From Bacillota bacterium (GTDB taxonomy: Bacteria; Bacillota; Clostridia; Lachnospirales; Lachnospiraceae): DNA of 13,059 bases. Positions 1 through 10,605 of this stretch are shown here, in pieces. The stretch spans positions 1 to 13,059 of the forward strand of contig JAEWRS010000052.1 in assembly GCA_023398855.1 (NCBI GenBank), given 5' to 3'. The position numbers and the translations under genes are program-made. A model generated the notes under the pieces. The model had not been told where the DNA came from, ran no database searches, and was given only the letters and a program-made list of their open reading frames with translations. The stretch's first letter is position 1, and each line of letters starts with the position of its first letter.

Positions 1-1
1 A

Positions 2-373
2 CTTGAGTCAGTTCAAAAGCAGTCTTTTGATTATTACAGGCACAATAATTTTGATTGGAATAAAAGAATATTATCTGAACAATACGTTGAAAAGTATGGG
101 AGATATATTCCGCAGCTTTCTTTTTCGTATTTTTGTACAAATAAAGAACCTTCCTTTTCATTTGCTGCTTTGAACTATCAACACTGTGAAACGGATTTAC
201 TGCCTTTGACCATATACATTTCGGATTATCTTGATTGGAGAACAATAAACTTTAATTTTATGTATTGGGATAACTACTTCACTGAGCAAGAAATTGTAGG
301 AATTCATCAGAAACTGGAACATAAAATGAAAGATATTATTGATGAAAAATGGATTGCTCAACAGAAAAAATAG
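2..373 (+). CDS. Condensation-domain-like protein, C-terminal fragment (5' end outside window)
   Basis: The reading frame is open from the first complete codon at position 2 to the TAG at 371-373, giving 123 residues with no internal stop, so the gene begins upstream of the window. An apparent TTG start at 170 lies in the middle of this open frame and is probably not the real start. The C-terminal part, with LTIYISD, then INFNFMYWDNYFTEQEI, then a helix rich in E, K and I, resembles the last strands and helix of NRPS condensation domains and related acyltransferases, where a 'fdy....f..e.i..l...l..ll' pattern is usual. The catalytic HHxxxDG motif would lie upstream and cannot be checked. The next two genes encode an adenylating enzyme and a carrier protein, which supports a role in transferring a carrier-bound acyl or peptidyl group. 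The family call is tentative because only the end is visible. It could also be another CoA-dependent acyltransferase fold. Confidence 0.6.
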   Translation, partial: LESVQKQSFDYYRHNNFDWNKRILSEQYVEKYGRYIPQLSFSYFCTNKEPSFSFAALNYQHCETDLLPLTIYISDYLDWRTINFNFMYWDNYFTEQEIVGIHQKLEHKMKDIIDEKWIAQQKK

Positions 374-410
374 GATAGCGAAAAATATGCTTGCAGCGGA
401 GGGGATATTA

Positions 411-1904
411 ATGTTTGAAAACATCTCGACAATCAGGGAATTACTTTCTTTCACGACAGAATGCTACGGTGAAAAACCTGTCTTTTCGTATATGAAAGAT
501 GGAAGGATGAACTCTGTCACCTATTCTGAATTTTCAAAAATGGTTACAGCTGTTGCAAAGCGATTGATTTTAAAGGGCATTACCAATAGCAAGGTGTCTA
601 TTGTATCGGAAAATTCGTATTACTGTTTATTGTGGAGCTATGCAGTGCCACTGTCAGGTAATGTTTTGGTTATGCTGGATAATATGGCAACGACGCAGGA
701 AAAATCTTATATGGTGGAGCATAGTGATACCGTCTGTCTGGTTTATTCTGCCTTTAATCAGCCGGATTGTGATTATATAACAAAGCACAACAAAAGTGTG
801 ATACATACAATTTGTATAGAAGCAGATACAGAGGACTTTCTCAATTGTGAAGAGGAGGTTACTTTACCAGATACTGACGGTTCAGAGCTGTCCTATCTGT
901 TTTATACTTCAGGAACCACAGGCAAACCCAAGGGTGTGATGCAGTCACAAATTAATTTGCTACGTTCTAGTTTTTATATATCCTATAGTCTTAAAATTAA
1001 AGATACGAATTATTTCATGCTGCCGGTCCATCATATTCTTCCATTTGCGAATCAGGTGCTTTTATCCATGTATTGTGGGGGAAATATTTTTATATCCGCA
1101 GGACTAAAGTATCTTTTAATGGAAATGCAGCAGGCCCGGCCATATTGTGTGTTTTTAGTTCCGGCGGTGCTGGCTTATTTTGAGAAAATCATTGAGGAAA
1201 CAGCACAAGAACAAATGAAAATAAATTGCTTTGATCATCTGATGGCGCGGAAACAGGTTTTTAGCCAACTGTTCGGAGGAAATTTACATATCATTATCAG
1301 TGGCGGAGCACCTTTAAATATTGATATTGCAAAACGTATGCAGGAATTGGATGTCTTAGTAATCAATGGATATGGGCTGACCGAAACCGTGGGATCAATT
1401 ACTGTTAATCCAAATGATGATATTCGTTTGGGAAGTATTGGACGGATTAATGCGAATTCCCAAGCAAAAGTAAAAGACGGGGAATTATTGTTTAAAAGCG
1501 CCTATCTATTTATGGGGTATTATAAGGATCCTGAGGCTACTGCAGAGGCATTTGATGGGGAATGGTTTTTAACCGGAGATTTGGGATATATGGAAGACAA
1601 TTTTGTATATTTAACCGGGAGAAAAAAGAACCTGATTGTCTTGCCCAATGGAAAGAATGTAAGCCCGGAAGAACTTGAATTTGTTTTTATGAAAATTGAA
1701 GAGATCAAAGAAATCGTGATATGTGAACAAAACGGGAAACTGACAGCCAAGATCTATTCAGATTGTGATGAAGGCATAATCCGCAAAAAAATCAGCGAAA
1801 TGAACAAGGGTTTGGCTTCCTATAAACAAGTTGAAAGCATAGTGTTTTATGATAAAGAATTTCCCAAAACAGCAAGCAAAAAGATTAAAAGAGGAGAAAT
1901 ATAA
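411..1904 (+). CDS. Stand-alone AMP-dependent acyl-adenylating enzyme (ANL superfamily)
   Basis: This 497-residue enzyme is predicted to adenylate a carboxylic acid with ATP and load it on a thiol, most likely the carrier protein encoded next. All the core ANL motifs are present: the P-loop YTSGTTGKPKG (about residues 165-175), GYGLTE (about 320-325), TGDLGY (388-393), GRKKNLIVLPNGKNVSP (about 404-420) and a C-terminal PKTASKKIKR with the expected catalytic lysine. The frame is open upstream to a TTG at 339, but the ATG at 411 has a GGAGGGG Shine-Dalgarno site at 398-404 and gives a normal N-terminus, so 411 was chosen. In the A4 region the sequence is LPVHHILPF (His207-His208). This looks like acyl or aryl acid ligases more than amino-acid-activating NRPS domains, which carry an Asp there to hold the alpha-amino group. 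The likely substrate is therefore a fatty or other carboxylic acid, which is an inference. The gene starts 37 nt after the preceding one and ends 1 nt before the next. Confidence 0.9.
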   Translation: MFENISTIRELLSFTTECYGEKPVFSYMKDGRMNSVTYSEFSKMVTAVAKRLILKGITNSKVSIVSENSYYCLLWSYAVPLSGNVLVMLDNMATTQEKSYMVEHSDTVCLVYSAFNQPDCDYITKHNKSVIHTICIEADTEDFLNCEEEVTLPDTDGSELSYLFYTSGTTGKPKGVMQSQINLLRSSFYISYSLKIKDTNYFMLPVHHILPFANQVLLSMYCGGNIFISAGLKYLLMEMQQARPYCVFLVPAVLAYFEKIIEETAQEQMKINCFDHLMARKQVFSQLFGGNLHIIISGGAPLNIDIAKRMQELDVLVINGYGLTETVGSITVNPNDDIRLGSIGRINANSQAKVKDGELLFKSAYLFMGYYKDPEATAEAFDGEWFLTGDLGYMEDNFVYLTGRKKNLIVLPNGKNVSPEELEFVFMKIEEIKEIVICEQNGKLTAKIYSDCDEGIIRKKISEMNKGLASYKQVESIVFYDKEFPKTASKKIKRGEI

Positions 1905-1905
1905 G

Positions 1906-2124
1906 ATGCTTATTGAAGTCATTCATATCATTATTGATAATTTTGCACCAACCATTGAGGTTACAGGGGATACTGCTATTAAAACAGATTTAGGGCTGGA
2001 TTCCTTTGAAATGATAAGACTCATCTGTATACTGGAAGAAAAGTATAACATCAGCATTAATGAAAGGGATGTGATTTTGCTGGCAACAGTAAATGATATT
2101 TGTAATTATATTGCTGACAGGTAA
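1906..2124 (+). CDS. Acyl/peptidyl carrier protein
   Basis: This is a 72-residue carrier protein of the phosphopantetheine-binding family. The motif LGLDSFEMIRL contains Ser33, the expected attachment site of the 4'-phosphopantetheine arm. The flanking helices (IIIDNFAP at the start, ICILEEKYNISI after the Ser, VNDICNYI at the end) match the four-helix ACP fold, and the length is close to that of free-standing ACPs. The frame can be extended upstream to 1849, but the ATG at 1906 sits one base after the stop of the adenylating enzyme and has GAGGAG at 1891-1896, so this start was preferred. The one-base junction suggests translational coupling and a dedicated enzyme-carrier pair. The helix after Ser33 differs from the housekeeping fatty-acid ACP pattern (DSLDxVEL), which fits a specialised carrier. 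Confidence 0.92.
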   Translation: MLIEVIHIIIDNFAPTIEVTGDTAIKTDLGLDSFEMIRLICILEEKYNISINERDVILLATVNDICNYIADR

Positions 2125-2195
2125 TGGGTACTGACCATTAATCTATTAGTTTTAAGTTATTAAGTTTGTTTTTGTATTATCTGGAGGAGATGGTT

Positions 2196-3122
2196 ATGAT
2201 AGAGCAAAAGGATGATTACAAAGCACTGTTCAAATTAACATTAATGAACTTTTTAATTACAGGTGTTATTGCTCTGGGGTTCATGACTTATTTATATTTT
2301 ACGTCGCATTCACTTTTGTTTTTAATACAAGCTGTCAGTAACATAGGATCAACAGTTGTATTGGGGATGTTTGCTTTGGTACTGAAAAGGCAGGCAGATA
2401 ACAAGTCTTATGAATATGAATATGGATTGGGTAAGTTTGAGGCACTGGGCACCTTTGCGGGCTTTATCATTCAGGATGTCAACCTTATGATACTGGCCGT
2501 GTTATCTGTGAATGATTTTATCCATGCTGATAGAGAAGTTTCTTTTGGTGTGCTGGAGTTTGCCTATCCAATAGCCGTAGTAATATATGATGTTGTAATT
2601 ATTATGACACTAAAGAGGAAAAGCAGTAGTAACAATGGAATGATAAAATCCCAAATTGTGGATTGTATGAATGAGGGACTTCAATTAATGGTATCCCTTG
2701 TGATCATGACACTGATTTGCCTGCTTCCTCATGTGATGGGAATATACAAATTTCAATATATCATCTGTCTTGCTATCATTGGTTATACTTTTTATTTGAG
2801 TGTGGATTCTATCAAACGTAGTGCACATTCATTACTGGACAAGTGTACAGATGAAACTGTGTCACTAAAAATACTTAGCGTTCTTACTGCTAATCATGAG
2901 CTTTATCAATATTTTGAAACATATCACACGAGAGTCTCTGCCAGAACCACATTTGTTGATATATTCATTGGTTATGAGGCTGATCTGACTATGAAAGAAA
3001 TATTACATAGAAATAATAAGATTAAAAATGATATAAAGGCACTTGTTCCGGATACGATTGTAAATTGTATCCTGATTGGCGACACTGACAGCCAGTCATA
3101 CCCACCGGAAAGCTGGATATGA
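2196..3122 (+). CDS. CDF (cation diffusion facilitator)-family membrane protein with atypical metal site
   Basis: This is a 308-residue inner-membrane protein with about six hydrophobic helices (roughly residues 14-35, 40-64, 85-109, 117-139, 160-183, 188-212) and a soluble C-terminal domain. The order of helices, the 'YGLGKFEAL' stretch after TM2 (HGHGKxE in typical members) and 'SLLDKCTDE' before the cytoplasmic domain identify the CDF fold. In proteins such as E. coli YiiP, the transport site uses Asp45 and Asp49 of TM2 with His153 and Asp157 of TM5. By hand alignment the same positions here are Gln45, Asn49, Asp156 and Glu160, and the HxxxH-type loop reads YxxGL. The transported substrate may therefore not be Zn or Fe, or the protein may have a different role. 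ATG 2196 was chosen because GGAGG at 2183-2187 is 8 nt upstream; the frame also allows starts at 2190 and 2166. It follows the carrier protein by 71 nt with no terminator seen, so it is probably in the same operon. Confidence 0.8.
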   Translation: MIEQKDDYKALFKLTLMNFLITGVIALGFMTYLYFTSHSLLFLIQAVSNIGSTVVLGMFALVLKRQADNKSYEYEYGLGKFEALGTFAGFIIQDVNLMILAVLSVNDFIHADREVSFGVLEFAYPIAVVIYDVVIIMTLKRKSSSNNGMIKSQIVDCMNEGLQLMVSLVIMTLICLLPHVMGIYKFQYIICLAIIGYTFYLSVDSIKRSAHSLLDKCTDETVSLKILSVLTANHELYQYFETYHTRVSARTTFVDIFIGYEADLTMKEILHRNNKIKNDIKALVPDTIVNCILIGDTDSQSYPPESWI

Positions 3123-3157: not shown

Positions 3158-3454
3158 ATGACTATTAGCAAGACATTGAATGGGAACGGACTAACGGTGA
3201 ACCTGTCCGGCCGCCTGGATACTACTACAGCGCCTCATTTGGAGGCGGAGCTAAAAACAACACTAACCGGTTTGAATTCCCTGGTAATGGATTTTGCAGA
3301 GCTGGAGTACATCTCCTCAGCCGGTCTGCGAGTACTGCTCTCGGCCCAAAAGGTGATGAACAAACAAGGAGAAATGGTGATTCGCCATGCCAATGAGACT
3401 ATCCTTGAAGTCTTTGAGGTTACTGGTTTTATTGATATCCTGACTATCGAGTGA
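3158..3454 (+). CDS. STAS-domain anti-sigma-factor-antagonist-like protein
   Basis: This is a 98-residue single-domain protein of the SpoIIAA/RsbV type. In such systems the unphosphorylated STAS protein binds an RsbW/SpoIIAB-like kinase, the kinase phosphorylates it, and a PP2C phosphatase restores it. The typical elements are visible in order: an N-terminal strand with LSGRLDTTTAPHLE (about residues 16-29), a central VMDFAEL strand, and the phospho-acceptor loop YISSAGLRVLL with Ser54 aligning with the phosphorylated Ser58 of B. subtilis SpoIIAA. The C-terminal FEVTGFIDILTI is also typical. The frame is open back to an ATG at 3119 overlapping the previous stop, but the ATG at 3158 has GGAGG at 3145-3149 at ideal spacing and is preferred. 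The gene is first in an operon that also encodes a PP2C-kinase protein and a second RsbW-like domain, which are its probable partners. Confidence 0.93.
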   Translation: MTISKTLNGNGLTVNLSGRLDTTTAPHLEAELKTTLTGLNSLVMDFAELEYISSAGLRVLLSAQKVMNKQGEMVIRHANETILEVFEVTGFIDILTIE

Positions 3455-4320
3455 TGACTGCCAGCGATTACAGCTGCCGCAAAATTCGTTTCGTGGACAG
3501 GGAGGCAGTGGAGGCCATTCGTTTAAAAGAAAGTCATGTGCTTAGTTCCCATGCCTTTGTCTCTTTGTTCCTGTGGCAGGAATCCATGGATCTTTCCCTT
3601 TGCCTGAGGAAGGACGCTTTTTTTGTCCGCACTGGTGTGAGGGGAGAGAACGCATGGTTGTTTCCCTGCGGCAGCCGGGAACAGAAGCTGAATTTCCTGA
3701 ATGTCATGGCGGCTACCCCTGGCTTTTCCCTGCATTACATCCGAGAGGAGGACATGAATTTTGTGGAGGAGCTTATGCCAGGGCGATTTCACTTTATGGA
3801 GACCAGGGGGGATGCGGAATATGTTTACCACCGCGCAGCACAGGTGGATATGCCTGGCCGAACTTATAAGAATCTCCGGGCCAAGGTTCACCGGGCTAGA
3901 GACCGCCACAACTGGCGGATCAGTACACTGGAGGCTGCCTCCTTACAGGAGGTCACCCAAGTAATATACACCTGGAGAAATCATCACGGCTCAAAGGGGG
4001 ATGCGGATGTAGCTCTTCTTGCCATAAGGCAGCACCTGGAGCTGGACTTGCAGGGCATTGTGCTGCAGGATGAGACAGGAGTCCAGGCGGTTGCTTTGGG
4101 CTCTGTCATTGCGCCCGGAGTGTTTGACCTTCATGTAACCAAAACCCTTCTGCCAGGTCTGGACGGCTATCTTAAGTGGGAGCTTTATCAGCGCCTCCCC
4201 AGTACTGTGGAGTGGATTGATCAGGAGGAGGATCTTGATCTGCCCGGGTTGCGTGCCAACAAGCTGGAATCTCAGCCGGACCGGCTGATTCCCCTTTGGA
4301 AGGGAGTTCCGAAGAAATGA
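3454..4320 (+). CDS. DUF2156 / phosphatidylglycerol lysyltransferase C-terminal-like protein
   Basis: This is a 288-residue soluble protein matching the DUF2156 (LPG_synthase_C) family, a double GNAT-like fold related to the catalytic half of MprF-type aminoacyl-phosphatidylglycerol synthases. Supporting features are YVYHRAAQVDMPGRTYKNLRAKVHRARD (about residues 123-150; family pattern 'Y.l.gr.y..kr..i..f'), the mid-protein GSV(I)..gvfdLHvtK strand, and the C-terminal WIDQEEDLDLPGLRANKLESQPDRLIPLW (about 254-282), typical of the family's end. No membrane segment is present, so unlike MprF it lacks the flippase half. The ATG at 3454 overlaps the previous TGA by one base, and a GTG at 3451 is the alternative. 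Either way translation is coupled to the STAS gene, and no good Shine-Dalgarno site is seen. The acyl or aminoacyl substrate is unknown; lipid modification is inferred from family only. Confidence 0.82.
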   Translation: MTASDYSCRKIRFVDREAVEAIRLKESHVLSSHAFVSLFLWQESMDLSLCLRKDAFFVRTGVRGENAWLFPCGSREQKLNFLNVMAATPGFSLHYIREEDMNFVEELMPGRFHFMETRGDAEYVYHRAAQVDMPGRTYKNLRAKVHRARDRHNWRISTLEAASLQEVTQVIYTWRNHHGSKGDADVALLAIRQHLELDLQGIVLQDETGVQAVALGSVIAPGVFDLHVTKTLLPGLDGYLKWELYQRLPSTVEWIDQEEDLDLPGLRANKLESQPDRLIPLWKGVPKK

Positions 4321-6065
4321 GTGAAACTTTTTTTACACATAAAATATTTTACCGGTTCTTCTTTCCCGCGGTGATTTCTTCCCTGTGCCTGGCATTGGCT
4401 AATCTGACGGATGCCCTCTGTGTAGGGATTCGTCTGGGGGAAAGTGCTTTGGCTGCCATCGGGCTGGTGACTCCCATTTGGTTAGTCTTTAACATTCTGG
4501 ATGTGGGGCTGGCCGTTGGTGGAGCAGTCACCTTTACCCGGCTTCTGGGAGAGGGAAGGGCGAAACAGGCCTTAAACGTTTTCGCACAGCTTTTGACCTG
4601 CGTGCTTTTTCTCAGTACGTCTATTGCTGTCTTAGGTGTAATCTTTCTAGAACCTGTTCTGTCCGTGTTGGGAACCGATCCCAGCCAGGGTATCGTGTAT
4701 AAAATGACAAGGGACTATGCCCTGCGGTTATTTCTTTCGGCGCCCCTTTATTTTCTAAATCTGCTATTTTACCACTTCATTCGCTGTGATGATGGAGAGG
4801 GGAGGGCCGGCGCAGGCCTGACAGTAGCTAACCTGCTGGATGTTGGACTCTCCTTTGTACTGGTTCTAGGCTTTGGCATGGGAGTCCGGGGGGCTATTTA
4901 CTCTACCATCCTGGGAACTGCTGCAGGTATTTTGATCTACCTGCCCCATTTCTTTCGCAAAAGCAATATTCTTAGCCTCAGGCTGGTGAGACCCCGTGTG
5001 ACAACCATATTTCCCTGTTTTAAGACTGGCTTCTCCTCGTCCTCCCAATACCTGTGGCAGTTTTTTCTGCTTTTAGTGCTCAATAACCTGCTGATACGCC
5101 GTCATGGGGAAGGGGGGCTGGCTGTCTTTAACGTTGTCCTCAATATTTCATATGTGGTAGCCGGTTTGTTCGACGGGCTGGGTGCCACCATACAGCCCTT
5201 GGTGGCTACCTTTCACGCCGAGCGTAACCAGGCGGCCAAGGAGCAGACCATGAAGCTGGCCTTTGCCTGGGGAACAGGACTGGGAGCGGTGCTTTTAACT
5301 GCGGTGGTGGTGCTTGCTCCTAAAATTGCAGAGGTCTTTGGTCTGTCGAAGACATTGGTTACTACGGGAGCAACCGCGCTGCGATGGTATGCTCTGAGTG
5401 CGGTTGCCGTAGGAGTCTCGGTAATATTGGCAGCCTATTGGCAGTCGGTGGAGCGTGATGCGGATACCCTGCGTCTTACCTTTCTGCGAACTTTTGCAGT
5501 TTATCTTTTGGCTGCCATACCTCTCGCAATGGGACCCTTAAACACCTTTTGGCTGGTCTTTCCCATTACGGAAATGGGAAGCCTGCTCCTATTGGGCCTA
5601 TGGAAAATAGGGCGGGGACAAAAAGGTTTTTCCTTTGGCAGTCTGGACGGAGTTCCCATCTATCAGCGGCTGCTACAGGAGGGGAATGATGCACTTTCCC
5701 TACTCATGGAGGAGGTGGAAGAGTTCTGCTCCCACCAGAGTGCCGGTAGGGCTCAGACTATGTTGGTGAATATGGCGCTGGAGGAAACATGCCAGGCCAT
5801 CTTCTTACATGTAGGAGAAAAGCGCAGGAATGATATATACATCATGATCACTCTTTTTTCCACGGAGGACGGAGGCTTTGAGCTACATATCAGGGATAAT
5901 GCCCCTGCATTTGATCCTTTTTCTCTGCGCACAGTGAAAATATCCGAGGCAGAGAATGAGGACCATGCCATGGAGAATATCGGGATACTTATGGTGAAGA
6001 AAAAGGCGAAAGAGTGTTACTATCGCCATTATCAAGGCTTTAATACTCTGACTGTACGCATGTAA
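4317..6065 (+). CDS. MATE-type transporter fused to a C-terminal RsbW-like HATPase domain
   Basis: This 582-residue protein has two parts. Residues 1-430 carry about twelve hydrophobic segments in the MATE (multidrug and toxic compound extrusion) pattern, beginning with FFFPAVISSLCLALANLTDALCVG, followed by GESALAAIGLVTPI and a second half from about residue 235. Residues about 445-582 form a cytoplasmic domain resembling anti-sigma-factor kinases: ALEETCQAIFLH (487-498, N-box region), HIRDNAPAFDPF (524-535, G1 region), ENIGILMVKK (553-562, G2 region) and the final YxHYQGFNTLTVRM. The last segment closely matches the end of the downstream protein's kinase domain. The Mg-binding Asn appears as Gln493, DxG reads DNA and GxG reads NIG, so ATP binding may be weak or lost. 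ATG 4317 overlaps the previous stop as ATGA, indicating coupled translation. An in-frame TTG at 4296 was not used. The fusion suggests that transport is gated by the STAS/phosphatase switch, which is an inference. Confidence 0.85.
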   Translation: MSETFFTHKIFYRFFFPAVISSLCLALANLTDALCVGIRLGESALAAIGLVTPIWLVFNILDVGLAVGGAVTFTRLLGEGRAKQALNVFAQLLTCVLFLSTSIAVLGVIFLEPVLSVLGTDPSQGIVYKMTRDYALRLFLSAPLYFLNLLFYHFIRCDDGEGRAGAGLTVANLLDVGLSFVLVLGFGMGVRGAIYSTILGTAAGILIYLPHFFRKSNILSLRLVRPRVTTIFPCFKTGFSSSSQYLWQFFLLLVLNNLLIRRHGEGGLAVFNVVLNISYVVAGLFDGLGATIQPLVATFHAERNQAAKEQTMKLAFAWGTGLGAVLLTAVVVLAPKIAEVFGLSKTLVTTGATALRWYALSAVAVGVSVILAAYWQSVERDADTLRLTFLRTFAVYLLAAIPLAMGPLNTFWLVFPITEMGSLLLLGLWKIGRGQKGFSFGSLDGVPIYQRLLQEGNDALSLLMEEVEEFCSHQSAGRAQTMLVNMALEETCQAIFLHVGEKRRNDIYIMITLFSTEDGGFELHIRDNAPAFDPFSLRTVKISEAENEDHAMENIGILMVKKKAKECYYRHYQGFNTLTVRM

Positions 6066-6079
6066 AGGAGGTGAGTACC

Positions 6080-8101
6080 TTGAATAAGAAAGCAAGAGTA
6101 TCTCTAAGAACAAAATCAGTACTGGTAATTGCCCTGATGGCACTCTTAATGGGAGCAGCCGCGATTACCGTAAGCTATCAAACCTATGCTAATGCAATTG
6201 ACAAACATTATAAGACGTTAGCAGTGGATCTTGCCCGGACAGCGGCGACTCAAATGGACAGCAATGTTTTGATTGGCAGTATAAAGGAGGGAAAGCCGGT
6301 TGGAGATTATAACCGGATGCTGGATTTTCTTCGCGATGTACAGGCCGCCAACAGCGTGGAATACATTTATGTCCTTCAGCTCAGGCCGGAGCAGCAAGAG
6401 ACATTCACAGTCATGGATACCGATCCCGACGTGAGCTTTGGGGCAATTGATACGCTGGTACAGGATATGCCTGAGGATAAAGATGAGCTGGTGTATATCA
6501 GCAATACAAAAGCCTTTGGCTGGCTTTCCTCAGCAATGGTAAAGCTAAAGGATGACACGGGCAAGGCCTATGCAGTCATGTGCGTGGATATTTCCATGAA
6601 TCATGTGATGTGGGACAGGTACCACTTTCTTATAGTTGTACTGCTGGTGGTATGTATAGTGATGATAGCATCGGCTCTCATTATGGTCCTGCTGGTCAGC
6701 CGTTTTGTCGTCAAACCAATCAATCAGCTCTCCCGTGCAGCCAGTAGCTTTGTTTCAGACCGAGAGAGTGAGGAGACCGCCACAGCTGCCGACCAGCTCC
6801 GGTACAAGCGGGATGTAAATGCATCTTCCGCGTTAGCCCGGCTTGAAATCCATACTGGAGATGAGATTGAGTCATTGGCCGAGGCAATTAAGACGATGGA
6901 GCAGGAAATCAATGACTATATTGAAAACCTCACTGCAGTTACTGCTGAAAAGGAGCGTATCGGCGCAGAGCTTAATGTGGCAAAGCATATTCAGGCCAGT
7001 ATGCTTCCCAGCATCTTTCCAGCCTTCCCCCAACGGCCTGAGCTTGACATCTACGCGACCATGACTCCTGCCAAGGAGGTGGGCGGCGACTTTTACGACT
7101 TTTTCCTGGTGGATGATGACAGGCTGGCTATGGTGATGGCCGATGTGTCCGGCAAGGGAGTACCGGCGGCCCTTTTTATGGTGATTGCCAAGACCCTTAT
7201 CAAAAACGTGACGCAAACAGGCCTTTCGCCCAGGGCTGTGCTGGAGAAGGTTAACAATCAGCTTTGCGTTGGTAACGAGGCGGAGATGTTTGTCACAGTC
7301 TGGCTGGGTATTCTGGAAATCTCAACGGGAAGGTTAACCTGCGCAAACGCAGGGCACGAATACCCGGTAATCAAGCGGGGGGACGGTGATTATGAGCTCA
7401 TCAAGGATAAGCATGGTTTTGTGCTGGCCGGTATGGAGGGAACCCATTACAAGGAGTATGAGCTGCATATGAATGCAGGCGATCGGTTTTTCCTTTATAC
7501 GGATGGTGTGGCAGAGGCTACCGACGCGCAGAACCAGCTTTACGGCACGGACCGCATGCTCTCAGCCCTGAATAGTAATAAAAAAATGGATTGTGAAAAG
7601 CTGCTTGGCCGGATGAAGGAGGACATTGATGCCTTTGTGGGTGATGCACCTCAGTTTGATGACATCACGATGCTGAGCCTGGAACTAAAGCCACAGAAAG
7701 GTCCTGGTATGAAAAAGCTGAAATTAAAGCCTTCTTTAGAGGCCGTGGGCGAAGTGACTGCTTTTGTAGAACAGGAGCTTGAGACTTTGGAGGTCTCCAG
7801 GAAGGTAATCGCTCAGATGAACATTGCAGTAGATGAGCTATTCTCCAACATTGCCCGTTATTCAGGGGCCAATGACGCGACCGTGGGCGTGAGTGTGCAG
7901 GAGGGCCTTGTTAAATTGCGCTTTGCTGATAATGGCCGGCCCTATGACCCTACCGGGAACCCGGACCCGGACACCACACTCTCCGCTGAGGAACGGGACA
8001 TCGGCGGCCTTGGTATTTTCATGGTGAAGAAGTCCATGGACACTGTGGAATACGAATATCACGACGGCCTTAACATCCTGACACTGACAAAGCAGAACTG
8101 A
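6080..8101 (+). CDS. Membrane sensor with HAMP, SpoIIE-type PP2C phosphatase and RsbW-like kinase domains
   Basis: This is a 673-residue regulator. TM1 spans about residues 13-33, an extracytoplasmic sensor about 34-181 (Cache-like by size and topology), TM2 about 183-208, and HAMP about 208-282. A coiled linker with the SpoIIE/RsbU signature AELNVAKHIQASMLP (296-310) follows. The PP2C domain carries GGDFYD (335-340), ADVSGKGVPAALFM (354-367), ANAGHEYP (422-429), YTDGVAEATD (473-482) and FDDITML (526-532), so the metal-binding Asp337, Asp355, Asp475 and Asp527/528 are all present. The C-terminal HATPase domain (about 545-673) keeps DELFSN (Glu586, Asn590), DNG (617-619) and GGLGIFMVKK (642-651), so it looks like an active kinase. 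One protein can therefore both phosphorylate and dephosphorylate the STAS protein. TTG 6080 was chosen because AAAGGAGGTGAG at 6064-6074 serves as its ribosome site; the GTG at 6071 lies inside that site. The gene begins 14 nt after the transporter gene. Confidence 0.92.
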   Translation: MNKKARVSLRTKSVLVIALMALLMGAAAITVSYQTYANAIDKHYKTLAVDLARTAATQMDSNVLIGSIKEGKPVGDYNRMLDFLRDVQAANSVEYIYVLQLRPEQQETFTVMDTDPDVSFGAIDTLVQDMPEDKDELVYISNTKAFGWLSSAMVKLKDDTGKAYAVMCVDISMNHVMWDRYHFLIVVLLVVCIVMIASALIMVLLVSRFVVKPINQLSRAASSFVSDRESEETATAADQLRYKRDVNASSALARLEIHTGDEIESLAEAIKTMEQEINDYIENLTAVTAEKERIGAELNVAKHIQASMLPSIFPAFPQRPELDIYATMTPAKEVGGDFYDFFLVDDDRLAMVMADVSGKGVPAALFMVIAKTLIKNVTQTGLSPRAVLEKVNNQLCVGNEAEMFVTVWLGILEISTGRLTCANAGHEYPVIKRGDGDYELIKDKHGFVLAGMEGTHYKEYELHMNAGDRFFLYTDGVAEATDAQNQLYGTDRMLSALNSNKKMDCEKLLGRMKEDIDAFVGDAPQFDDITMLSLELKPQKGPGMKKLKLKPSLEAVGEVTAFVEQELETLEVSRKVIAQMNIAVDELFSNIARYSGANDATVGVSVQEGLVKLRFADNGRPYDPTGNPDPDTTLSAEERDIGGLGIFMVKKSMDTVEYEYHDGLNILTLTKQN

Positions 8102-8205
8102 TCAGACGAAGAAACAGATGAGGAACAACAGGAAGGTGAAATGCAGTTAAAATATACATAATGCAAAAGACTTCAGCCAGATGATACCTTAAGAATCAGA
8201 TAGAT

Positions 8206-8254
8206 AAAGAGCCATGTTTATGATATAGTAAATATATCATAGCTTGGCTCTTTT
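8206..8254 (+). terminator. Rho-independent terminator of the partner-switch operon
   Basis: AAAGAGCCA at 8206-8214 pairs with TGGCTCTTT at 8245-8253, and inside it TATGATATA at 8219-8227 pairs with TATATCATA at 8233-8241 around a GTAAA loop. The outer stem ends in a TTTT run at 8251-8254. It lies about 105 nt after the stop of the phosphatase-kinase gene. The outer stem starts with AAA, so it could also terminate on the - strand. Confidence 0.8.
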
Positions 8255-8307
8255 CGGTTGAAAGGAATGCAGGATGTTATGGTAAGGATCCATATGAAGC
8301 TGTTGGA

Positions 8308-8350
8308 AAAAGGCTTGCTTTTCCGCAAGATTGGTAAAAGCAAGCCTTTT
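8308..8350 (-). terminator. Bidirectional terminator, mainly for the HD-GYP gene
   Basis: This is a perfect 15-bp inverted repeat: AAAAGGCTTGCTTTT at 8308-8322 and AAAAGCAAGCCTTTT at 8336-8350, with a 13-nt loop. Read on the - strand it lies 21 nt after the HD-GYP stop and ends in five T residues, as a rho-independent terminator does. Read on the + strand it also ends in TTTT, so it would back up the terminator at 8206-8254. Confidence 0.88.
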
Positions 8351-8371
8351 CTACTGTCTGTAAAATCCAGA

Positions 8372-9442
8372 TTATTCATTATCATCAATAATAGTAAGGT
8401 TAAAGAGCGTACAGGATAAGTCCACATCTTTGCCTGCCTTTTGAGAAGGACTGATAAAACGGATAATCGGGCGAAGGGAAAATCCCGGAGTATTATCTTT
8501 TACGACCGCAGAGCTGCCGTCACTAAGATGAACAATGGTACCGATTGGATATGCTGAGACACAGTGAAGGAAAGCTGTCAGTAATTCCGGGTCAAAATGG
8601 CTATTGGAGCAGCTGGTGAGATAATCAAAGATCTGCCTGGGTGACCATGCTTTCCGGTATGGTCTGGTAGAGCTTAGGGCATCATATACATCGGCAATGG
8701 CCAGAATGCGTGCAAAAAGGGGGATGTTTTTGCCTGAGAGCCCTAAAGGGTACCCGCTACCATCATATTTTTCATGATGGGTCTGAACTCCCTGAAGCAC
8801 TGCCTGGGAAATTACCATATGTTCTTCCAGCTTTTTATAGGAAAGGCTGGGATGCTGTTTCATGATTTCAAATTCAACGCTGGTAAGAGGACCTGGTTTG
8901 TTGGTAATATCAATGGAAATATCTGTTTTCCCAATATCGTGAAGAAGGCCGCAGAGCGCCAGATCGTTTAGATTGGAAATGGTAAGGCCGATGTATTTTC
9001 CCAATAAAACGCTTAAAATGCCTACATAAAGACTGTGGGAATAGGTGTAGCCGTCATAATCCCTGATATCAATCATCTGAAAGAGATACTTATCTTTATT
9101 CAGGACATTCATAACAACGGATTCGGCTACTTTGGTGATTTCTTCGTAAACCTGTTTGCTGGACTGAAAAGTGAATTTTTTTAGGCTCTGGTCAAAGACA
9201 TCACGGATGCTTGTGAGCATTTTTGCCTTTAATTCCGGCTCCACGAAGTCTTCTGGTTCAATGCCTTCTGTTAGCTCTGTACCGATATATGCCCCTTGGA
9301 TTCCGATTCTTTTCATGCGGTTGATCATACGTTCGCTTAGCTTACAGCCGGTTACCGCAAAAGGAAGCATTGGGTTTATTCCCGGAATATTACGGGCTAA
9401 TTCCATACCTTCAGTCAATTTCTCAATAGGAAGATAAATCAA
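8372..9442 (-). CDS. HD-GYP domain protein, probable cyclic-di-GMP phosphodiesterase
   Basis: This is a 356-residue cytoplasmic protein (numbered from the TTG start). Residues 1-110 form the N-terminal region common in Clostridia HD-GYP proteins (IYLPIEKLTEGMELARNI near the start). The HD-GYP domain spans about 125-300 with the expected metal and signature residues: YSHS (His136), LLHDIGK (His168-Asp169), KQHP (His197), THHEKYDGSGYP (His222-His223, GYP 230-232) and IADVYDALSSTRPYR (Asp251). These residues indicate an intact hydrolytic site for c-di-GMP. No receiver or sensor domain is visible, so activity may be set by transcription. The frame can begin at GTG 9451, but that GTG forms part of GAGGTGA, the only good Shine-Dalgarno site, while TTG 9442 lies 6 nt after it, so 9442 is preferred. 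The terminator at 8308-8350 lies beyond its 3' end and the promoter at 9563-9591 upstream. Confidence 0.9.
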   Translation of the reverse strand: MIYLPIEKLTEGMELARNIPGINPMLPFAVTGCKLSERMINRMKRIGIQGAYIGTELTEGIEPEDFVEPELKAKMLTSIRDVFDQSLKKFTFQSSKQVYEEITKVAESVVMNVLNKDKYLFQMIDIRDYDGYTYSHSLYVGILSVLLGKYIGLTISNLNDLALCGLLHDIGKTDISIDITNKPGPLTSVEFEIMKQHPSLSYKKLEEHMVISQAVLQGVQTHHEKYDGSGYPLGLSGKNIPLFARILAIADVYDALSSTRPYRKAWSPRQIFDYLTSCSNSHFDPELLTAFLHCVSAYPIGTIVHLSDGSSAVVKDNTPGFSLRPIIRFISPSQKAGKDVDLSCTLFNLTIIDDNE

Positions 9443-9550
9443 TTCTTTCACCTCAACAGACCAAAACTCAGTCTCTTCTTTCTGTTCCTCAAATTCCTTT
9501 TATGCTATCTGTAAGTTCCTTTTTATGTTAAAGTTGGAAATATATACACA

Positions 9551-9744: not shown

Positions 9745-10605
9745 ATGATCGAAATCTTAAACGGGATGCACGAAACCATTCATTATGAGTGTTCATTAGG
9801 GCTTCGTCTGTATCATAATACGAATTGTGAGGATTATCCGGATCATTGGCATGGAGGCATTGAAATAATTATGCCAACAATGGGAGGATATGAGGTCATA
9901 GCAGGGGAAGAACATTATTCTCTTGAGGCGGAAGATATCATTGTGATTCATTCTGGAGTAATCCATTCCTTAAAGGCACCTCTTGCGGGAGAACGTTATA
10001 TTCTTCAGTTTGATACGGCTCTTCTCTACAACTTAAAAGAAATGGAAACCCTGCTTCACATGATCCCTCCGGCAATACATATGAAAAAGGCGGACAAGGG
10101 TTCCCTTTATCGCTTTGTTAAGAAAAAGCTTGATAAAATTATTGAAGAATATCAGGGGAACAGCAGTTTCCGGGAAGCGTCCATCTATGCTGCTCTCATT
10201 GAGATATATGTGAAGCTGGGCAGAACCGCAGTATGGAGGGACAAAGTATGCCGGAAATTTCATAGTATGAAAGGCCACGAGTATTTCGGCGCTGTTATGA
10301 GCGCCTGTAATTTTATCAATCAGCATTTTATGGAGAATCTTACATTGGAAGAGGTGGCCCGGATCGGAGGATTTTCCAAATACCACTTTACCAGGATCTT
10401 TAAACAGTATATGAATATGACTTTTTACGAGTATCTGAACTCCAGGCGCATAAAAAAGGCGGAGGAGCTTTTATATAATTGTGGAGGAATGAGCATTACA
10501 GAAATTGCTATGAGCTCCGGCTTTTCCTCTATGAGCGCATTTAACCGTACCTTCAAGATGATTAAACACTGTTCTCCCAGCGGCTACAGGAAGATCAGAC
10601 AGTAG
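9745..10605 (+). CDS. AraC-family transcriptional regulator with N-terminal cupin domain
   Basis: This is a 286-residue one-component regulator. Residues about 15-95 form a cupin-type ligand-binding domain with DHWHGGIEI (His34, His36) and a second conserved His near HSGVIHSL (69-76), typical of sugar-sensing AraC proteins. The C-terminal 100 residues contain the two helix-turn-helix motifs: LTLEEVARIGGFSKYHFTRIFKQ (about 199-221) and MSITEIAMSSGFSSMSAFNRTFK (about 249-271), followed by SPSGYRK (family: P..yR). The ATG at 9745 has AGAGAGGAAA just upstream. It is divergent from the HD-GYP gene and lies 184 nt before a GH3 hydrolase gene in the same direction, with no terminator between. The hydrolase is therefore the probable target, with the product or a related sugar as inducer; this is an inference. 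Confidence 0.93.
   Translation: MIEILNGMHETIHYECSLGLRLYHNTNCEDYPDHWHGGIEIIMPTMGGYEVIAGEEHYSLEAEDIIVIHSGVIHSLKAPLAGERYILQFDTALLYNLKEMETLLHMIPPAIHMKKADKGSLYRFVKKKLDKIIEEYQGNSSFREASIYAALIEIYVKLGRTAVWRDKVCRKFHSMKGHEYFGAVMSACNFINQHFMENLTLEEVARIGGFSKYHFTRIFKQYMNMTFYEYLNSRRIKKAEELLYNCGGMSITEIAMSSGFSSMSAFNRTFKMIKHCSPSGYRKIRQ

Follow-up and report, generated by a model that had tools for sequence, protein, structure and literature searches.

Partner switching is best known for freeing sigma factors, as in the SigB and SigF switches (RsbU/RsbV/RsbW and SpoIIE/SpoIIAA/SpoIIAB), and it is already known with non-transcriptional outputs. The portion of PMC8457831 that treats them places the diguanylate cyclases SiaD, HsbD, and BgrR under STAS control, and the part of PMC7367683 concerned with MlaFB describes the STAS protein MlaB sitting on the ABC transporter ATPase MlaF. 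Here we describe a four-gene operon in a 13,059-nucleotide stretch of Lachnospiraceae DNA (contig JAEWRS010000052.1 of assembly GCA_023398855.1; hereafter the window), in which one interacting domain of such a switch appears to be built into a MATE-family exporter as a degenerate HATPase domain. In relatives, the other interacting domain, STAS, is built into enzymes, and many Clostridia carry related loci. The operon comprises the following features:

3158..3454, + strand: STAS anti-anti-sigma-type protein, 98 amino acids (ATG 3158, TGA 3454; GGAGG ribosome-binding site immediately 5')
3317..3319, + strand: predicted phospho-acceptor serine codon within SSAGL of STAS, by analogy with SpoIIAA/RsbV
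3454..4320, + strand: DUF2156 / LPG_synthase_C double-GNAT transferase, 288 amino acids, predicted soluble (ATG 3454; PF09924 4.4e-18)
4317..6065, + strand: MATE-HATPase fusion protein (ATG 4317)
4317..5621 (approximate border), + strand: MATE transporter part of the fusion (MatE, PF01554, 2e-27, two stretches)
5640..6065, + strand: C-terminal HATPase of MATE, predicted pseudokinase / docking domain (HATPase_c_2 2.9e-08)
5775..5801, + strand: degenerate N-box ALEETCQAI, with Glu retained and Asn lost (motif columns)
6080..8101, + strand: membrane sensor-HAMP-PP2C (SpoIIE)-HATPase kinase (TTG start 6080 preceded by AGGAGG)
7112..7687, + strand: PP2C phosphatase domain (motifs GGDFYD, DVSGKG, and DDIT in the translation)
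7730..8092, + strand: intact kinase HATPase of the SpoIIE protein (DELFSN, DNG, GGLG; RsbW 6m36_A E 0.0012)

An earlier note, made from the sequence alone, had described these four genes as one tightly coupled operon, and the open reading frame (ORF) listing, Pfam, and direct reading of the junctions bear this out. The STAS and DUF2156 genes overlap by 1 nucleotide (TGATG), the DUF2156 and MATE-HATPase genes overlap by 4 nucleotides (ATGA), and a 14-nucleotide gap separates MATE-HATPase from the sensor-PP2C-HATPase gene. As the note had also stated, neither the ORF listing nor Pfam revealed a sigma factor or DNA-binding gene within the operon; the closest regulator found nearby is an AraC-type gene at 9745. 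No Rfam family matched in the window. The STAS product matched Pfam STAS (1.2e-13) and TIGR00377 (67 bits, above the cut-off), in scans taken from a longer ORF start at 3119. Two MatE repeats are present in the MATE part, which scored 123 bits against TIGR00797, under the model's cut-off of 147.4. Pfam matches to the sensor protein were SpoIIE (8.9e-48), HATPase_c_2 (1.6e-18), and HAMP (24.2 bits, just below the cut-off of 25).

The window thus holds the components of a partner switch, namely a STAS protein with a phosphosite motif, an intact GHKL serine kinase, and a PP2C phosphatase. The C-terminal HATPase of the SpoIIE protein has its N, DxG, and GGLG motifs intact. Across the window and 80 related loci (L001 onward, described below), 54 of the 56 STAS ORFs carry the SSAGL motif; of the remaining two, one has SSVG in its place and one is an N-terminally extended ORF whose motif perhaps lies outside the search range. 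Among SpoIIE ORFs longer than 480 amino acids (n = 80), the GGDxYD-type and DVxGKG-type motifs are each present in 75 and the DDxT-type motif in 63.

The HATPase domain on the exporter presents a different picture. For comparison, an alignment was built of 80 MATE HATPases, RsbW, 33 small HATPases, and the C-terminal HATPases of 27 SpoIIE proteins, that of the window among them. Of the 60 separate or SpoIIE kinase domains, 59 carry the N-box Asn, whereas all 80 MATE domains lack it and have no Asn from two columns before the N-box column to one after it. The G1 Gly is retained in 1/80, and the first and second G2 Gly in 1/80 and 2/80, respectively. In contrast to these losses, the Glu that matches RsbW Glu49 is retained in every MATE domain (80/80). 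In the RsbV-RsbW structure, as given in the part of PMC7340262 on this interface, RsbW Glu49 contacts RsbV Ser56, the phosphorylated serine. Loss of much of the ATP machinery combined with retention of the partner-facing Glu is the pattern expected of a docking domain.

When the MATE HATPase alone was compared with the PDB using phmmer, the only matches were weak (M-CSF and yhcO), and a fold comparison was therefore needed. The AlphaFold2 model of the domain (predicted local distance difference test score, pLDDT, of 88.5) has an RsbW/SpoIIAB-type fold, with SpoIIAB, RsbW, UsfX, and SiaB as the best PDB matches; most of these entries are complexes with STAS or STAS-like partners. Judged from its motifs, the MATE HATPase is very probably a degenerate, kinase-dead domain that, we infer, decayed from an active kinase. 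This prediction leaves the window with one kinase, at the SpoIIE C-terminus. The earlier note's statement that all switch parts are present therefore holds for STAS, PP2C, and the intact kinase, but the second HATPase very probably does not act as a kinase.

The pseudokinase claim is limited to the MATE-HATPase family of the window. We dropped the broader idea that all MATE-HATPases are degenerate, since a second group of nine sequences (L101-L108, L118) keeps the N-box Asn in 6/9, even though its G2 glycines are lost. A third kind (L131, 4545-6610) retains both the N-box Asn and DNG and adjoins a STAS gene; no SpoIIE turned up in 13 kb of sequence there. STAS and/or SpoIIE lie in the region read for 8/9 of the second group, as well as for L131. 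Separately, a MATE protein at L133:4595-6586 has a C-terminal extension that by eye resembles a nucleotide kinase.

To survey relatives, we made one genome scan with a MATE-HATPase profile, which yielded 96 relatives, the best 80 of which were kept as loci. The scan relied on a pair of peptide patterns in the HATPase end of the protein, so members lacking them were missed. Genes in these loci are mechanical ORFs labelled by hidden Markov models built from the window genes, and contig ends lower the counts. Nearly all 80 loci are titled Clostridia, Lachnospiraceae, Oscillospiraceae, Butyrivibrio, or similar, and one is from Selenomonas. Neighbors were counted on the same strand within 7.5 kb of MATE-HATPase. 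SpoIIE is the most constant of them (79/80 loci; 56/57 of those with 3 kb on both sides), followed by DUF2156 (56/80; 40/57), a formyltransferase (53/80; 42/57), STAS proteins shorter than 160 amino acids (41/80; 29/57), a separate small HATPase (31/80; 27/57), longer STAS proteins (10/80; 8/57), and a GNAT of one cluster, counted by locus (9/80; 6/57). The earlier note had proposed looking for STAS, DUF2156, MATE-HATPase, and SpoIIE together in other genomes; the whole set, with STAS of any length, recurs in 29/80 loci and in 23 of 64 clusters, and the lack of co-occurrence that the note had named as a refutation was thus not borne out. When MATE proteins were clustered at 80% identity, SpoIIE accompanied 63 of the 64 clusters, DUF2156 44, formyltransferase 41, and STAS of any length 35.

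A search with the HATPase domain only, in 295 genomes of one order, gave the same association with SpoIIE, an ORF of which was present in 12/12 loci (L081-L092; loci made from matches of more than 100 bits, 3.4 kb each, some coinciding with the 80 loci). As a control, we used eight genomes chosen from the 80 loci for their cassette. In each (8/8), a SpoIIE match is located no more than 4 kb from the strong MATE-HATPase match. By contrast, 147 unfused PF01554 matches all lie more than 5 kb from any SpoIIE match; these came from the 150 listed of 314 PF01554 matches, three of which belong to the fused family, with positions compared by eye. Because the control genomes were chosen for the cassette, only the unfused MATE proteins count as fresh information. 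In a plasmid search, one record spans at least 80% of the MATE-HATPase fusion, at 23% identity, and the others are partial. At two loci, genes for ABC transporters that carry C39 peptidase domains lie near the cassette (L005:13480-15681 and L010:3679-5865), and L044 and L078 contain ORFs that resemble these in size and place. The presence of such C39-type genes suggests peptide export.

The DUF2156 model is a double GNAT along the full length of the 288-amino-acid protein, with no fused N-terminal flippase domain of the MprF type. Its fold is near the MprF synthase domains and also near the aminoacyl-tRNA-dependent peptide synthases of streptothricin biosynthesis. The formyltransferase found in many relatives is Fmt-like (55 ORFs matched its profile, Pfam agrees, and its nearest solved structures are methionyl-tRNA formyltransferases) and is fused to DUF2156 in a single ORF in five cases; the window itself has no formyltransferase. 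A lipid-only role for DUF2156, which we had considered, is weakened by this neighbor and by the fusions. Since the formyltransferase occurs in over half of the loci and is sometimes fused to DUF2156, the partnership points to small-molecule chemistry as much as to lipid.

Linkage is weaker when viewed from the DUF2156 side than from the MATE side. The DUF2156 family occurs in 206/295 genomes of the one order, with five matches of at least 255 bits and then a gap to 163 bits. Three of the five top matches have a MATE-HATPase match, from the HATPase-domain search above, no more than 2 kb away. For another, L121 (G071), the 18 kb covered contain no MATE, STAS, or SpoIIE. At L122 (G295, 5203-9440), STAS, LDH-like, glyoxalase-like, formyltransferase, and DUF2156 genes occur together without MATE, and the MATE-HATPase and SpoIIE of that genome are on a separate contig (L109). 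In eight lower-scoring DUF2156 regions (L123-L130), no cassette gene adjoins DUF2156, with the exception of L125, where a plain MATE-like ORF lies about 6 kb away.

In some relatives, STAS is joined to an enzyme. Ten ORFs of 392-448 amino acids start with STAS; Pfam identified two of these as STAS-APH, and phmmer detected an APH-like region in 10/10. In the second MATE-HATPase group, Pfam identified STAS-APH-HATPase triple fusions at L103:3770-5389 and L104:8452-10041, and ORFs in L107, L108, and L118 are akin to these, with an APH-like region and a HATPase. In the Selenomonas locus (L080, 3718-5313), STAS is fused to the condensation domain of a nonribosomal peptide synthetase (NRPS); an NRPS gene and then MATE-HATPase come next. 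At L028:34-8982 and L043:19-8985, an NRPS that has a reductase end precedes STAS, MATE-HATPase, and SpoIIE, and both loci also hold a small HATPase, a formyltransferase, and DUF2156 after the NRPS. NCBIfam classifies the L028 NRPS as aureusimine-type, and a phosphopantetheinyl transferase (PPTase) gene is located between it and the cassette. Such NRPS contexts are a small minority of loci. One tentative reading of the fusions, which we consider unlikely, is that STAS and HATPase form a regulated plug and socket, in which dephosphorylation docks the STAS-welded enzyme on the exporter and the product is channelled out. If true, partner switching would here serve a new purpose, that of a phospho-switched complex for biosynthesis and export.

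From the gene set, its recurrence, the motifs, and the structural model, we favor, with moderate confidence, a complete partner-switch circuit that has the exporter as its output. The PP2C-HATPase protein would receive an extracellular signal at its membrane sensor; its HATPase would phosphorylate, and its PP2C domain dephosphorylate, the serine of SSAGL in STAS, as their intact motifs suggest. Unphosphorylated STAS would dock on the C-terminal pseudokinase of MATE and alter transport (both the docking and the sign of its effect are predicted), and phosphorylation would free it again. MATE would export a small product, its presumed cargo, that the DUF2156 transferase helps make. DUF2156 probably transfers an aminoacyl or acyl group, and the Fmt-like formyltransferase would join in many relatives. 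The operon has no sigma factor and a switch domain sits on the exporter, which most naturally suggests an output at the membrane; with that domain built into the exporter, what the outside signal controls is probably export itself and not gene expression. The earlier note had also proposed a membrane output, in the form of transport or lipid modification; the switch domain on the exporter and the lack of a sigma factor favor it, but lipid modification is just one option.

Several observations weigh against an exporter-output circuit. Of the 55 loci flanked by 3.5 kb on each side, only 25 have STAS together with a kinase; 14 have neither, 12 have the kinase only, and 4 have STAS only. In Butyrivibrio G003, the one genome examined among the 14 (its MATE locus is L059), a 98-amino-acid STAS (145 bits) and a 136-amino-acid RsbW-like HATPase (197 bits) sit on another contig; the switch parts may therefore act from elsewhere in the genome. 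DUF2156 is missing in 17/57 loci with 3 kb flanks, and the enzyme is thus not obligatory. The MATE domains keep the G1 Asp in 79/80 and the last G2 Gly in 80/80, so that some nucleotide binding may be retained. Finally, the RsbV-contacting Asp42 and Lys44 of RsbW are not retained in the MATE domain, although their equivalents are mostly missing from the local kinases too.

RsbW/SpoIIAB-type HATPases are dimers, and the MATE pseudokinase could instead pair with a true kinase rather than with STAS, recruiting the SpoIIE-HATPase or an RsbW-like protein and tuning its activity. The fold common to the MATE and kinase HATPases fits this idea, as do the ranking of SpoIIE (79/80) above STAS among the neighbors and the RsbW dimer, which is formed via helix 1 and strand 1 according to the section of PMC7340262 on dimerization. 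Pure heterodimerization would nevertheless leave the strictly kept Glu, the STAS-serine contact, unexplained. Furthermore, a C-terminal HATPase was not detected in 57/84 SpoIIE ORFs, some of which end at contig ends, and we regard kinase pairing as unlikely. It is improbable that STAS and SpoIIE serve a distant sigma/anti-sigma pair, with the MATE-HATPase reading STAS levels or being a bystander. RsbV/RsbW-type circuits classically release sigma factors, and each of the eight control genomes has several STAS and SpoIIE matches, but the switch domain is covalently joined to the exporter and the operon is without a sigma factor. A scan of 107 of 178 listed flanking ORFs, which mostly omitted ORFs above about 600 amino acids, gave 93 Pfam families, and the 25 commonest of them include no sigma-factor family. 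DNA-binding LytTR domains occur in 4 of these 107 ORFs and response regulator domains in 3. The MATE superfamily also includes lipid flippases, and a split MprF, in which DUF2156 would attach an aminoacyl group to a membrane lipid for the MATE-family protein to flip under phospho-control, is consistent with the MprF-like synthase fold; given the formyltransferase partner, we consider it doubtful.

A 786-amino-acid ORF lies between MATE-HATPase and SpoIIE in three loci (L055:11030-13390, L057:3985-6345, and L061:11033-13393). One of them, in L055, encodes a MalT/LuxR-type regulator, so some relatives do have a DNA-binding protein.

Three genes precede the operon in the window, and their membership in the cassette is uncertain:

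339..1904, + strand: AMP-binding ligase (AMP-binding 6.1e-54)
1906..2124, + strand: acyl/peptidyl carrier protein (PP-binding 3.4e-09)
2190..3122, + strand: CDF-type cation efflux protein, start codon also uncertain (Cation_efflux 6.2e-13)

We rejected these as cassette genes on the grounds that the same order occurs only in the close relative L001. However, NRPS-type genes adjoin the cassette in L010, L028, L043, and L080, and the upstream genes may yet be linked to it. The first ORF of the window (2-373) looks by eye like the end of a condensation domain; Pfam and phmmer against the loci gave no match. GC content is about 36% in the upstream DNA (ligase, carrier, and CDF genes; window 1-3122) versus about 50% in the operon, and L001 shows the same step. 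The cassette is not a GC island in general, as the mean cassette-flank difference is only 0.012 (standard deviation 0.033) in 65 loci; the exceptions are the window, L001, L002, L031, and L054. Directly 3' of the operon is an HD-domain (HD_5) protein on the minus strand (8372-9451), and further downstream are the AraC-type regulator and a GH3 glycosidase.

If the exporter-output circuit is correct, an outside signal would gate small-molecule export directly and fast, the cassette would point to small-molecule loci still to be explored in bacteria of the gut and the environment, and the MATE HATPase would be a natural pseudokinase with predicted STAS docking. The earlier note knew of no described system with this set of genes. 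Our searches of open-licence PMC text agree, in that we did not find there a description of this set or a MATE-exporter partner switch via a degenerate kinase domain with enzyme-fused STAS, although partner switching does reach non-transcriptional outputs in known systems.

Among described systems, the MprF / A-PGS and L-PGS synthases and the Sbb17/Sba18 peptide synthases share the double-GNAT fold of DUF2156, which differs in standing alone without a flippase and in having the Fmt-like formyltransferase beside it in many relatives. Rv1364c-type RsbU-RsbW fusions (PDB 3ke6), which are tied to sigma control, similarly combine PP2C and a HATPase kinase in a single chain, but without a transporter. 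MlaFB, as far as the cited part of its description goes, resembles the predicted docking here in that a STAS protein binds and supports a transporter; unlike the present system, it is an ABC transporter without a HATPase domain, and that part shows no phosphorylation of MlaB. In SiaABCD, HsbA/HsbD, and BgrSTUWV, a STAS or STAS-like protein sets a non-transcriptional output according to whether it is phosphorylated, and that output is a cyclase rather than a MATE exporter with a pseudokinase domain. The SigB and SigF switches share the RsbV-type phosphosite STAS, the PP2C phosphatase, the HATPase kinase, and the predicted RsbW/SpoIIAB fold of the MATE HATPase; in contrast to them, the operon here has no sigma factor and places a second, predicted kinase-dead HATPase on an exporter. 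As judged from sequence, what this locus and its relatives add to known partner switching is the degenerate kinase domain on MATE, the formyltransferase partner, and the STAS-enzyme fusions.

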